Source: Methanobacteriaceae archaeon
GTDB lineage: Archaea > Methanobacteriota > Methanobacteria > Methanobacteriales > Methanobacteriaceae
Length of the DNA stretch: 49,542 nucleotides
Direction: 5' to 3'
Assembly: GCA_029219465.1 (NCBI GenBank)
Contig: JAQXTL010000017.1
Location: forward strand, 1 to 49,542
The notes under the pieces are model-generated. The model was given only the letters and a program-made list of their open reading frames with translations, had not been told where the DNA came from and did not search any database. Of this stretch, positions 44,512 to 49,346 are shown piece after piece. Position numbers and translations under genes: made by a program. Each line of letters begins with the position of its first letter. Position 1 is the first letter of the stretch.

Positions 44512-44937
44512 CTATTTACTGTTCAATTTATTATTCAAATCACGTGCAACCAAATAATAATATATATAAAAACTAGCCCAGAAAACAGCTGCAAAAATGC
44601 AAGCTATTGCAATCCATGTTATTATTGGACCGATTCCAAGATTAATTGGCATCCATTTTAAGTATACTGCAACTGCAAACAATACTCCCATACCAATAAC
44701 CATCTGAAAGATAACCTGAAGAGGGAATGCAACATTCTCATTTTCATAAATCAAACCACTTAAGGAGAATGCCCAACCAACAACAATTGTTCCGAGAAAT
44801 GCATTTATAATATCAATACCGCTGAATCGAATAGTTTCAGGCCCTACTTGAAGAGATATCATTACCATGACACACATTACAACAAAACATCCGACAAATG
44901 CTCCGAATGCTAATCTTCTAACTAAATCCAGTTTCAT
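44512..44937 (-). CDS. DUF3021 family four-helix membrane protein
   Basis: A 141-residue protein with four membrane helices, beginning MKLDLVRRLAFGAFVGCFVV and with LGTIVVGWAFSLSGLIYENE, which matches DUF3021. In Firmicutes such proteins are encoded next to LytTR regulators and are thought to modulate them at the membrane. Here it is eight bases downstream of a LytTR gene, the same arrangement. Ends in a charged tail DLNNKLNSK. Confidence 0.85.
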   Translation of the reverse strand: MKLDLVRRLAFGAFVGCFVVMCVMVMISLQVGPETIRFSGIDIINAFLGTIVVGWAFSLSGLIYENENVAFPLQVIFQMVIGMGVLFAVAVYLKWMPINLGIGPIITWIAIACIFAAVFWASFYIYYYLVARDLNNKLNSK

Positions 44938-44945
44938 GAAATCAC

Positions 44946-45386
44946 CTATAAATCCAAAGCCCTTTTAAATTCAGGCAAATATTTTCTTGAGATATTATCC
45001 TTCAAGCCGTTTTTAAGTTCTATAAACATCATTCCCTTAAGTGAAGGAGCCACTCTTTTTATCTTTTTTAGATTAACGATAGTGGTTTTTGAAATACGGA
45101 CAAAATCACTTGTTAAAGTTTCTTCAACTTGATACAATGGCTTTTTAATGATATACTCCTGATTTTCTGTATATACATTGACCTGTTTATCCTCAACTCT
45201 AAACATGAAAATCTCACTAAATTCCAATAATGCTATGTCAGATCCCCTTTTAACTGCCAGCATTTCATTTGAATCATCACTTTCAAGAATTAACATTGCT
45301 TTTGTGATATTATCTGTCAATTCATTGGTGTGAATGTCAGCATACGGCTCTTCAATATCTCGTGAAACAAATAAATTTACCTTCAT
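44946..45386 (-). CDS. LytTR-type DNA-binding regulator
   Basis: A 146-residue protein whose C-terminal half is a LytTR domain: EIFMFRVEDKQVNVYTENQ, PLYQVEETLTSDFVRISKTT, IVNLKKIKRV and GLKDNISRKYLPEFKRAL. The N-terminus is a short beta-rich unit without receiver Asp, so it is not phosphorylated by a kinase. LytTR is mainly bacterial and rare in archaea. It lies between two 2TM genes and DUF3021 in one tight operon. Confidence 0.9.
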   Translation of the reverse strand: MKVNLFVSRDIEEPYADIHTNELTDNITKAMLILESDDSNEMLAVKRGSDIALLEFSEIFMFRVEDKQVNVYTENQEYIIKKPLYQVEETLTSDFVRISKTTIVNLKKIKRVAPSLKGMMFIELKNGLKDNISRKYLPEFKRALDL

Positions 45387-45389
45387 ATT

Positions 45390-45665
45390 TTATTTCCTTA
45401 GTTTTTCCATCTCTTCTTGAATTTTTCGTTCCCTGTATTCTTTACTGTCAAATCTGCTGCTGAACACAAATGCCTTTAAGAATTCGACTGCAATTCCAAT
45501 TCCCCAAAAGAATACTGGAAATACAACCCACCAGAATTCCAGAGTGAAAATATAGTTAACAACAGCCAGTGCAGCATTTACAATCAGATATATTGTAAAG
45601 CTTTTATAAAATTCTATTTTTGCATCTGCTCTTCTCTCAGCAATTACCCTTAAACTGTCACTCAT
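45390..45665 (-). CDS. 2TM-domain membrane protein (second copy)
   Basis: A 91-residue protein with the 2TM layout: RRADAKIEFYKSFTIYLIVN, a helix AALAVVNYIF, then FWWVVFPVFFWGIGIAVEFL and a charged tail with RERKIQEEMEKLRK. It resembles the preceding gene (A/VDAKI-x-F). It abuts that gene and the LytTR gene, so it belongs to one operon. 2TM domains often accompany LytTR or kinases in bacteria. Confidence 0.82.
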   Translation of the reverse strand: MSDSLRVIAERRADAKIEFYKSFTIYLIVNAALAVVNYIFTLEFWWVVFPVFFWGIGIAVEFLKAFVFSSRFDSKEYRERKIQEEMEKLRK

Positions 45666-45917
45666 CTAATCACCTCTTTTTGAAAGTTCATTTTCAACAA
45701 TTCTTTCACGATTGTAACTAATTGGATATGCATCAAAAAGATCTTTTAAAAGAGCAATTCCACCAAATAACATTGCAAATTTGAGTAACCAGAAATCTCC
45801 CAAGAATACGAAACAAACAATTGCCAATATAGTATTTGAAACTATAAACTTAAATAAATTTTCTTGAAACCTGATTTTTGCATCCACTCTTTTTTCTGCC
45901 TTTTCTCTTACATGCAT
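45666..45917 (-). CDS. 2TM-domain membrane protein (first copy)
   Basis: An 83-residue protein: charged start REKAEKRVDAKIRFQENLFK, two membrane helices (FIVSNTILAIVCFVF and LLKFAMLFGGIALLKDLF) and a charged end. GGTGAT precedes the ATG, and a TATA-like CATTTATATATTAC lies about 40 bases upstream, so this is the first gene of the four-gene operon. Paralogue of the next gene. Confidence 0.82.
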   Translation of the reverse strand: MHVREKAEKRVDAKIRFQENLFKFIVSNTILAIVCFVFLGDFWLLKFAMLFGGIALLKDLFDAYPISYNRERIVENELSKRGD

Positions 45918-46044: not shown

Positions 46045-46743
46045 CTATAGAAGAGCTACTAATAAATATAAAATAGAAGTCATTGCAGGAACAGTTAAGT
46101 TATCAATTCCACCATAACTGAATGCTTCACATGCAGTTGTAACTGCTGAAATTGCCAATATATAAACTATATTGAATTCAGGCATTGTACATCCAATTGA
46201 AGCAAAAACCATCCATACAAATACACTCATAACAGATGTGACCACAAACATGGTAAGTGATCCTTCAAGAGATTTGGTTCCACCAAATATTGAGTATTTG
46301 ACTTTACCAAATTTCTGACCAATTAATGCTGCAAATCCATCACCATATACCATAGGCACAATAGCTAATGCTACAATCCAAATGAAGAATTTAGGATTTC
46401 CTGCAGGAGCAATAGATGCAAATATTGCAATTAAAATTGTCCAAATCCCCGCATAGAAGAATAATCCTAATGCATGACCGGATTCAGTAACACTATTTTT
46501 AATTTTAATTGGAGAATATTCAGTTAAGAAGAATAGTGCAATTGTAATTGGCAATGTTAAAAACCAAACCATATTCCACGGATCTGCAAAAAATGGCATT
46601 GCAAATATCATATTACCTACCATAATATGCAAAAATTTACGTGAAACTTCAGGTCTTGTTTTTAAAACCATTTCAGCTACAACAAAAATGACTGCAACAT
46701 AAATATATACTACAATTAATGCAAGAATATCTGTGAATATCAT
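46045..46743 (-). CDS. polyprenol/phytol kinase-like membrane protein (dolichol kinase/VTE5 family)
   Basis: A 232-residue protein with about seven membrane helices and the CTP-dependent lipid kinase motifs RKFLHIMVGN (35-44), VYGDGFAALIGQKFGK (132-147), GGTKSLEGSLTMF (154-166) and EAFSYGGIDNLTVPA (206-220). The family phosphorylates phytol, dolichol or related isoprenoid alcohols, or transfers CMP to phosphatidate. Its ATG overlaps the stop of the tocopherol-cyclase-like gene, so they are coupled. In plants phytol kinase and tocopherol cyclase act in one pathway. Here an isoprenoid alcohol from archaeal lipids is the likely substrate, by inference. Confidence 0.86.
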   Translation of the reverse strand: MIFTDILALIVVYIYVAVIFVVAEMVLKTRPEVSRKFLHIMVGNMIFAMPFFADPWNMVWFLTLPITIALFFLTEYSPIKIKNSVTESGHALGLFFYAGIWTILIAIFASIAPAGNPKFFIWIVALAIVPMVYGDGFAALIGQKFGKVKYSIFGGTKSLEGSLTMFVVTSVMSVFVWMVFASIGCTMPEFNIVYILAISAVTTACEAFSYGGIDNLTVPAMTSILYLLVALL

Positions 46744-47858
46744 TTATCATACTCTCCGTATTCACAGCCAGCATTTTCCATTTTAACATGATCAATGAGA
46801 GTTCCATCTTTTTTATATAATTTGATTTCACCCCAACCGTTTCCACCATTCCATAAACGGTTGTGTAATTTTTTACCATTAGGAGCCTCATAATTGAATA
46901 ACATCATTTCATCACGTTTACAGTAAAGTACGAGTTCCATTTTGGAGTTTTTATTACTTGCATTGATTCTCCATGTATGTACTTCATCACCTTCTTCAAA
47001 ATCAAAATCGATTTTTACAAGGTTCCAGAATCTTGCAAAGTTGTATTCATACATTTTACCTTCATAGTAAAATCCAATTAACAATTTACGAGGAATAGAT
47101 ATTCCAAATGCTTTTGGTTTTCCTCCACCTGCTTCAAATGCGGAATTGTTAAGTTTTTTACCAGTAATAAGACTTGTTAAGTTACATGATGAAATCCAAA
47201 GCCATGGTGAAGTAAAGTCTCCACCCCAGTTTTTATCTGCATAACCATAGGATTTTTCAGGAATTACTTCATATTCTCTGCCGTCAAGCCAGATAGTTCC
47301 ACTATATTGTGTTTTAATTCCTTCAGCATGCCAGAACATTTCAAAAGAGTTTAATTTTCTAAATAGGCTATTTGCACCATAACCTACATTAAAAGTAATT
47401 TGTTTATCGATGTCTAAATCCCACATCATATCTCCAGCATCACTCATATATTCAGGGTGATTTTTAGCATCTTCTTCGCTAACTCTTGCAAACCCTTTCA
47501 TATGAGTTTCTGTAAGACTACAATCCCCAACTTGAACATTTAATTCATCATCAGGGCAGTTGAAATATTTCATTGAATAAAAATTATGAATCTGTTTAGG
47601 ATTTTTACCCCATGTACCTGCTTTAATCATACAGTAAGATGGTTTTTTACCAGCTTTTTGGTTTTCAGGCAATTGGCCAAGAGTAGGTTCTTCTTCAGCC
47701 AATGCAGGGTTACATACAAAGTATTCAATAAAAAATGGTCTTTCTTCACCTGTTTCTTTATCATATGCAGTTAAAGAATGCCACCACCAGTCATAACCTT
47801 TTTTGGCAAGTGGTCCCTTGAGCATATAATAATTTCTTTTCAAATCACTTTTATTCAT
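46740..47858 (-). CDS. tocopherol-cyclase-like protein (VTE1 family)
   Basis: A 372-residue soluble protein resembling plant tocopherol cyclase. The best match is SYGYADKNWGGDFTSPWLWI (203-222), then CNL, similar to the plant YSEKNWGGGFP..W.W..CN. FEAGGGKPKAFG (241-252) and the GFYYEGKMYEY pattern (262-272) parallel the AGGG and HYDGVFYEF stretches. The N-terminus has YDWWWHSLTAYDKETGEERP and FIEYFVCNP. Methanogens make no tocopherol, so the substrate must be another prenylated or long-chain compound. GGAGG precedes the ATG. It is the first gene of the pair with the kinase-like gene. Confidence 0.84.
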   Translation of the reverse strand: MNKSDLKRNYYMLKGPLAKKGYDWWWHSLTAYDKETGEERPFFIEYFVCNPALAEEEPTLGQLPENQKAGKKPSYCMIKAGTWGKNPKQIHNFYSMKYFNCPDDELNVQVGDCSLTETHMKGFARVSEEDAKNHPEYMSDAGDMMWDLDIDKQITFNVGYGANSLFRKLNSFEMFWHAEGIKTQYSGTIWLDGREYEVIPEKSYGYADKNWGGDFTSPWLWISSCNLTSLITGKKLNNSAFEAGGGKPKAFGISIPRKLLIGFYYEGKMYEYNFARFWNLVKIDFDFEEGDEVHTWRINASNKNSKMELVLYCKRDEMMLFNYEAPNGKKLHNRLWNGGNGWGEIKLYKKDGTLIDHVKMENAGCEYGEYDK

Positions 47859-48538: not shown

Positions 48539-48638
48539 ATATATTATTCAAATAAAACCATTATAAAATCACCATCAAATATTCTAAATTTAAATATTTA
48601 GATAAAAATATTATTAAGTGAACAAATTAGTGATTTAT

Positions 48639-49346
48639 ATGGTTTCATTAAAGGAAAAATTTGAATTTATGGATGATGGAATTGACATTCCATTTTATAA
48701 CGGCACACCAAAGCTGTCGACAGTTGAATGGGGACTTGTACTTTCATCTATTCTATTAACAATAGGATATCTAACTGTAATACGCATACCTGGTGAATAT
48801 CTCCCAGTAGCTATTTTTTTAACATCAGTTATACCTGCATTATACATCTGCAAAGGTAATTATAACATATTCTTTAAAAAACCAAAGCTTAGAGATATAA
48901 AAATAATAATTTTATGTTTAATTGGGATTTATATCTACACAATAGCTATAGGATTTATTTTGCAAAATCTTGTTGGAAATATGGCTGCTCATGCAAGTAC
49001 TAATGATCCAGCATCCCTAATGACATTAATAATAATGTGTATTCAATTAATGGGTGAAGAATTCTTTAAAATACTTCTTTTATTGCTCATTATGTTTGTA
49101 TTGTACAAATATACCAATAACCGTAGCATTTCATTATTTGTAGGCCTTATATTATCTATGGCAATATTCGGTTTAGTCCATTATAATGCTTACAGCGGTA
49201 GAATAATACAAATATTATTTATACAGGGTTTTGGTGCGATATTTGAATATTATGCATTTTTAAAAACAAAAAACGTATGGATTTCTTATATAATTCATGT
49301 ATTACGTGATTCCATACTTGAACTCGTAAAAATGATTGGTTATTAA
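48639..49346 (+). CDS. CPBP-like intramembrane protease (second in window)
   Basis: About 235 residues from the ATG at 48639, with seven or so membrane helices. The CPBP motifs are weaker than in the other copy: CIQLMGEEFFKILLLLL has EE but Lys in place of Arg, MAIFGLVHYNAY has the FxxxH, and IIHVLRDSILE has H with Asp where Asn is usual. A variant or degenerate metalloprotease is likely. The start choice is weak: GTG 48618 is also in frame. Confidence 0.78.
   Translation: MVSLKEKFEFMDDGIDIPFYNGTPKLSTVEWGLVLSSILLTIGYLTVIRIPGEYLPVAIFLTSVIPALYICKGNYNIFFKKPKLRDIKIIILCLIGIYIYTIAIGFILQNLVGNMAAHASTNDPASLMTLIIMCIQLMGEEFFKILLLLLIMFVLYKYTNNRSISLFVGLILSMAIFGLVHYNAYSGRIIQILFIQGFGAIFEYYAFLKTKNVWISYIIHVLRDSILELVKMIGY

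Follow-up and report, generated by a model that had tools for sequence, protein, structure and literature searches.

In CrtC, protonation of a prenyl double bond and stabilisation of the cation require residues D268, W283 and W285 (PMC12402844). Among the kinases acting on isoprenoid alcohols, the malaria enzyme PolK is a shown prenol kinase for which an R-K-x-x-H clamp has been proposed (PMC10849223), and CdsA represents a CTP-using superfamily that has the dolichol kinases as distant relatives (PMC5088576). As for archaea, PMC9385802 cites Ohnuma (1996) for prenol and prenyl-phosphate kinase activities from Sulfolobus, and a 2020 study already labelled a gene of M. ruminantium as tocopherol cyclase by homology (PMC7772410).

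The window, i.e., the whole 49,542-nt stretch of methanogen DNA analysed here, carries two adjacent genes, CYC and KIN, arranged as follows:

46740-47858, minus strand: CYC, 372 aa, assigned from its PF14249 match, residue conservation, AlphaFold2 model and Foldseek comparison.
46045-46743, minus strand: KIN, 232 aa, a multi-helix membrane protein, characterised from its invariant residues, AlphaFold2 model, Foldseek comparison and gene context.
46740-46743, minus strand: overlap of the CYC stop with the KIN start, 4 nt (ATGA), a translational coupling signal.

The two coupled reading frames described in the earlier note are thus both present, and the neighbourhood survey confirms that the pair co-occurs in other genomes, KIN directly following CYC in 33 of the 40 methanogen CYC loci. 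Of these 33 loci, 27 show a gene overlap of 1 or 4 nt and the other 6 a spacing of 40-119 nt, which argues that the pair is more than the product of chance. To our knowledge, a CYC-KIN pairing has not been described before. The reading that we tentatively favour is a horizontally assembled isoprenoid module of gut Methanobacteriales, in which KIN would be a prenol kinase and CYC would protonate a prenyl double bond, both within the same class of compounds.

Downstream of KIN, a cassette at 44512-45917 comprises genes for two 2TM proteins, a LytTR regulator and a DUF3021 protein. Roughly half of the CYC-KIN loci in Methanobrevibacter have kept this cassette, an instance of regulators of bacterial type in an archaeon. 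Upstream of the operon, on the opposite strand, an Rce1-like membrane protease (PF02517, E 1e-6) is encoded at 48618-49346.

CYC matches the Tocopherol_cycl family (PF14249; E 1.9e-12, 47.4 bits, where the gathering cut-off is 26.6), the match being confined to residues 166-368. The AlphaFold2 models of CYC and KIN were built on alignments of the locus proteins; that of CYC (mean pLDDT 91) predicts a two-beta-barrel fold of the AttH/CrtC type, and no transmembrane segment, signal peptide or membrane anchor is evident in the sequence or the model. Foldseek relates this model with a probability of 1.00 to 2ich, 7a0t, 7e5t and 9g4c, and also to 7a0q; the proteins matched are the AttH-like NE1406, the Diels-Alderase Fsa2, kievitone hydratase, other pericyclases and 25-phosphosteroid lyase. 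The E-values range from 3e-9 to 3e-5, but the TM-scores are only about 0.45-0.5. Across 53 sequences the conserved positions comprise G205-Y206, D208-K209-N210-W211-G212, W219 and W221, the last two being invariant and D208 at least 90% conserved; W26, a possible counterpart of W110 in CrtC, is invariant as well. The sequence profile of CYC reaches kievitone hydratase (E 8e-4), whose D and W-x-W align with D208 and W219-x-W221. By analogy with kievitone hydratase and with CrtC, whose D268, W283 and W285 form a pattern of similar appearance, D208 is the putative acid and W219/W221 the putative cation-stabilising pair, so that CYC has both elements of this enzyme type. Other Methanobacteriales (g6, g16) have a further PF14249 subfamily, at L114 4756-5742, L116 5318-6304 and L122 4781-5752, whose members are shorter (323-328 aa), share about 21% identity with CYC and do not adjoin KIN.

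In a profile search KIN matches no Pfam or NCBIfam family; the CTP_transf_1 profile (PF01148) is matched by 1 of 24 members of the KIN family (E 0.003), and not by the KIN of the window. Searching the PDB with the sequence gave chance matches only. The AlphaFold2 model of KIN (mean pLDDT 88) has a CdsA-like fold, its best four Foldseek matches being CdsA chains (4q2e) with a probability of 0.99 but E-values of 0.03-0.06. Comparison with distant methanogen relatives reveals that R35, H39, G134-D135-G136, K157, G161-S162 and D214-N215 are invariant, that K36 is at least 90% conserved and that the YGDG motif (133-136) is invariant or nearly so; the R-K-x-x-H clamp of the VTE5/PolK/dolichol kinase superfamily is thus present. 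Since no curated profile matches, the kinase resemblance, which is real, is founded on the motifs, the fold and the genes nearby, and KIN is predicted to be a membrane prenol kinase of the CTP-dependent prenol/dolichol kinase-CdsA superfamily. Hence, of the profile matches proposed in the earlier note, that of CYC lies above the cut-off and that of KIN failed, and KIN cannot be counted as a member of a curated Pfam or NCBIfam family. The motifs named there were found in both proteins and are conserved across relatives, and the family assignments stand: CYC belongs to the VTE1-type superfamily by its PF14249 match and KIN to the VTE5/CdsA type by motifs, fold and context.

Within the order, KIN predates CYC, being present in genomes that are Methanothermobacter- or Methanothermus-like (f2, f3; names inferred). 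Its usual partner is TMKL, a thymidylate-kinase-like protein encoded directly downstream, for which the following copies can be given:

G000:C15:5441-5995 (L126 1501-2085): TMKL of the window's genome, PF02223-like.
L111 5325-5885: TMKL, PF02223-like.
L119 6070-6693: TMKL, PF02223-like.

The order cofH-KIN-TMKL is found in G005, G022, G057, G114 and G072, and in f2, f3 and g6 the KIN-TMKL pair adjoins a UbiA prenyltransferase gene. A survey of 150 Methanobacteriales genomes finds both KIN and TMKL in 98 and neither in 46, with 3 + 3 discordant cases. The resulting phi is 0.91, or 0.97 outside two Methanobrevibacter-like genera, whereas KIN and CYC reach 0.47 overall and a negative value outside these genera; since such counts share ancestry and linkage, their Fisher p-values do not amount to independent evidence. 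The genes cofH and TMKL stand side by side, with KIN missing from between them, in the window's genome and in seven relatives. The window's genome has KIN behind CYC, not at the cofH-TMKL site, and G031, one of the seven relatives, has KIN elsewhere and no CYC. The old operon of KIN is cofH-KIN-TMKL, and TMKL is its ancestral partner.

In TMKL the DR motif of thymidylate kinases lacks its Asp, and elsewhere the window's genome encodes a thymidylate kinase of conventional appearance (G000:C2:147536). TMKL is therefore unlikely to be the thymidylate kinase of this genome and becomes a candidate prenyl-phosphate kinase. It is not required as the only possible second kinase: each of the 20 genomes tested, whether or not it has KIN, encodes DUF92, which we take to be the VTE6 family. 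The closer of the KIN homologues in Clostridia adjoin DUF92 (L134, L135, L170, L171, L172) or are fused to it (L128, 1498-2949; L129, L137, L147, L173, L174), and some of these KIN-like/DUF92 loci adjoin squalene/phytoene synthase genes. By analogy, this KIN-DUF92 association is the VTE5-VTE6 arrangement that would be expected of a prenol salvage kinase. A separate group is probably formed by more distant KIN homologues, which are about 241 aa long and include one that adjoins a cation-efflux gene (L144).

The closest bacterial relatives of CYC, 54-66% identical, occur in Lachnospiraceae, Clostridium, Paenibacillus, Butyrivibrio and others. In the CYC tree most gut methanogens form one clade (100/99) within a larger, otherwise Firmicutes clade (100/100), and the copies of G128 and G057/G114 fall elsewhere, among gut Bacilli and Butyrivibrio (99/97). 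This separate placement indicates at least two acquisitions; CYC thus entered methanogens from Firmicutes, and apparently from gut bacteria. No CYC copies were found in viral contigs. A role of CYC in hydroxyarchaeol synthesis is not expected, since Firmicutes are without archaeal lipids, and no literature link of tocopherolquinol to the CYC carrier Butyrivibrio was found.

It is possible, if rather unlikely, that CYC is a self-contained hydratase or cyclase that detoxifies prenylated plant phenolics or terpenoids, as kievitone hydratase does in fungi, and has spread among gut and plant-associated microbes; its position before KIN would then mainly provide it with a promoter or be incidental. 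Kievitone hydratase, a close fold match of CYC, detoxifies a prenylated phytoalexin. In the neighbourhood survey CYC is single and without conserved neighbour in 40 bacterial loci, 28 of 34 Firmicutes carrier genomes have CYC without KIN, and Methanosphaera (g3, name inferred) carries a CYC of the main methanogen clade in the absence of KIN. However, an incidental neighbour would not be expected to pair repeatedly with a KIN-type kinase, as seen in the window clade, G128 and Fusibacter, or to be transferred jointly with it between genera. The pairing in G128, in the order CYC-KIN-TMKL, involves an unrelated CYC and lies on one 4.2-kb contig of a fragmented MAG; going by this one short contig, CYC and KIN came together in methanogens on at least one further occasion. 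In Fusibacter bizertensis (L130 1453-3129) a PF14249 protein belonging to another subfamily is encoded 9 nt behind a KIN homologue, an arrangement present in none of eight other loci examined in its order. Concerning joint transfer, the KIN of g4 genomes has its place in the window clade, apart from G128/G135 (unity of g4 is rejected with AU p 1e-4 to 1e-5), while the TMKL tree holds g4 together (99/99), from which CYC and KIN appear to have moved together.

Each of the two genes is often found without the other. In G042 CYC is degraded and KIN intact beside it, and none of the 150 genomes has both KIN and CYC unless it belongs to one of the two Methanobrevibacter-like genera. In our reading, the association of CYC and KIN brings an advantage around one substrate class but can be dispensed with, and it is not a fixed two-step pathway.

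It is improbable that the two proteins form a kinase-lyase pair, in which KIN would phosphorylate an isoprenoid alcohol and CYC would eliminate the phosphate to give an alkene (e.g., phytol to phytadiene). The CYC model does match 25-phosphosteroid lyase structures (E 1.5e-6 to 3e-5), and an ATP-dependent dehydration of this kind has been described in anaerobic sterol degradation; however, the hydratases and AttH match CYC better than the lyase does, and most CYC carriers are without KIN.

We likewise give little credence to KIN being a polyprenol (dolichol or undecaprenol) kinase for the lipid carriers of pseudomurein or glycans, unrelated to CYC. Such a function would agree with the dolichol kinase superfamily in which KIN is placed, with the dolichol-kinase label given to a gene of M. 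ruminantium and with the greater age of KIN in the order. Yet KIN is missing from 49 of the 150 Methanobacteriales genomes, Methanosphaera included, which argues against a core wall enzyme, and in bacteria the closer relatives of KIN have DUF92 and squalene/phytoene synthase genes, not wall genes, as neighbours.

Finally, de novo synthesis of a tocopherol-like chromanol by CYC-KIN, as VTE5 and VTE1 help to achieve in plants, is rejected as extremely improbable despite the family resemblance of both proteins: the window's genome (G000), like most relatives tested, encodes only one UbiA-family prenyltransferase, so that neither an aromatic (homogentisate-type) enzyme nor a source of the prenylated hydroquinone substrate of tocopherol cyclase (EC 5.5.1.24) is evident, and oxygen is required for the homogentisate route. 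The likeness to plants does not go beyond the family level, and the pair is not the relic of a plant pathway. A single obligatory plant-like pathway is not supported: CYC stands alone in bacteria and in Methanosphaera, KIN occurs without CYC in 28 of the 150 genomes, and TMKL, rather than CYC, is the tight genomic partner of KIN. The proposal of the earlier note, an isoprenoid-related route other than tocopherol synthesis, is supported.

In the horizontally assembled module, which remains our tentative preference, KIN would phosphorylate an isoprenoid alcohol for reuse, most likely a C20 compound (geranylgeraniol or phytol) and presumably with CTP as donor, and a second kinase, either of the DUF92/VTE6 type or TMKL, would make the diphosphate. 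CYC would protonate a prenyl double bond with D208 as the acid and W219/W221 stabilising the cation, and could thereby hydrate, cyclise or, in the reverse direction, unmask the prenyl chain of an isoprenoid derived from the gut (plant diet) or recycled from lipids. After its acquisition from Firmicutes, CYC may have come to be co-expressed with KIN once the latter had left the cofH-KIN-TMKL operon. More doubtful is the narrower idea of an undescribed route of gut methanogens, where dietary phytol or geranylgeraniol would be acted on in sequence by an enzyme of the VTE1/CrtC superfamily and a prenol kinase, and KIN-TMKL would be the archaeal prenol and prenyl-phosphate kinases behind the activities reported from Sulfolobus; searching the literature for work on how rumen methanogens metabolise phytol brought up nothing of use.

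Livestock methane originates mainly from rumen methanogens, and little is known about their lipid exchange with the plant-rich gut. If the module works as proposed, it would mean that archaea can draw on isoprenoid alcohols by uptake or recycling and can alter prenyl chains by means of enzymes acquired from gut bacteria. We know of no archaeal gene assigned to the prenol or prenyl-phosphate kinase activities, for which KIN and TMKL are candidates.

Compared with the known systems, CYC has in common with plant and cyanobacterial VTE1 the Pfam family, a KNWG-type motif and the two-barrel superfamily fold; it differs in that only its second half matches and in that no chromanol precursor pathway is evident in the window's genome. 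Its motif starts with D (D208), where the other PF14249 subfamily of methanogens and Fusibacter has E. With CrtC and kievitone hydratase CYC shares the fold and the D...W-x-W pattern, but in the fold alignment it is about 12% identical to kievitone hydratase, and it has no evident signal peptide or membrane anchor. The 25-phosphosteroid lyase of Sterolibacterium has the CYC fold and is preceded in its pathway by a 25-hydroxysteroid kinase; the match of CYC to this lyase is weaker than to the hydratases, and in Sterolibacterium no lyase candidate lies near the 25-hydroxysteroid kinase gene. As for KIN, it resembles VTE5, PolK and dolichol kinase in its CdsA-like multi-helix fold, its R-K-x-x-H clamp and the DUF92 neighbourhood of its bacterial relatives, and departs from them in having no curated profile match and, as ancestral partner in methanogens, TMKL instead of DUF92.
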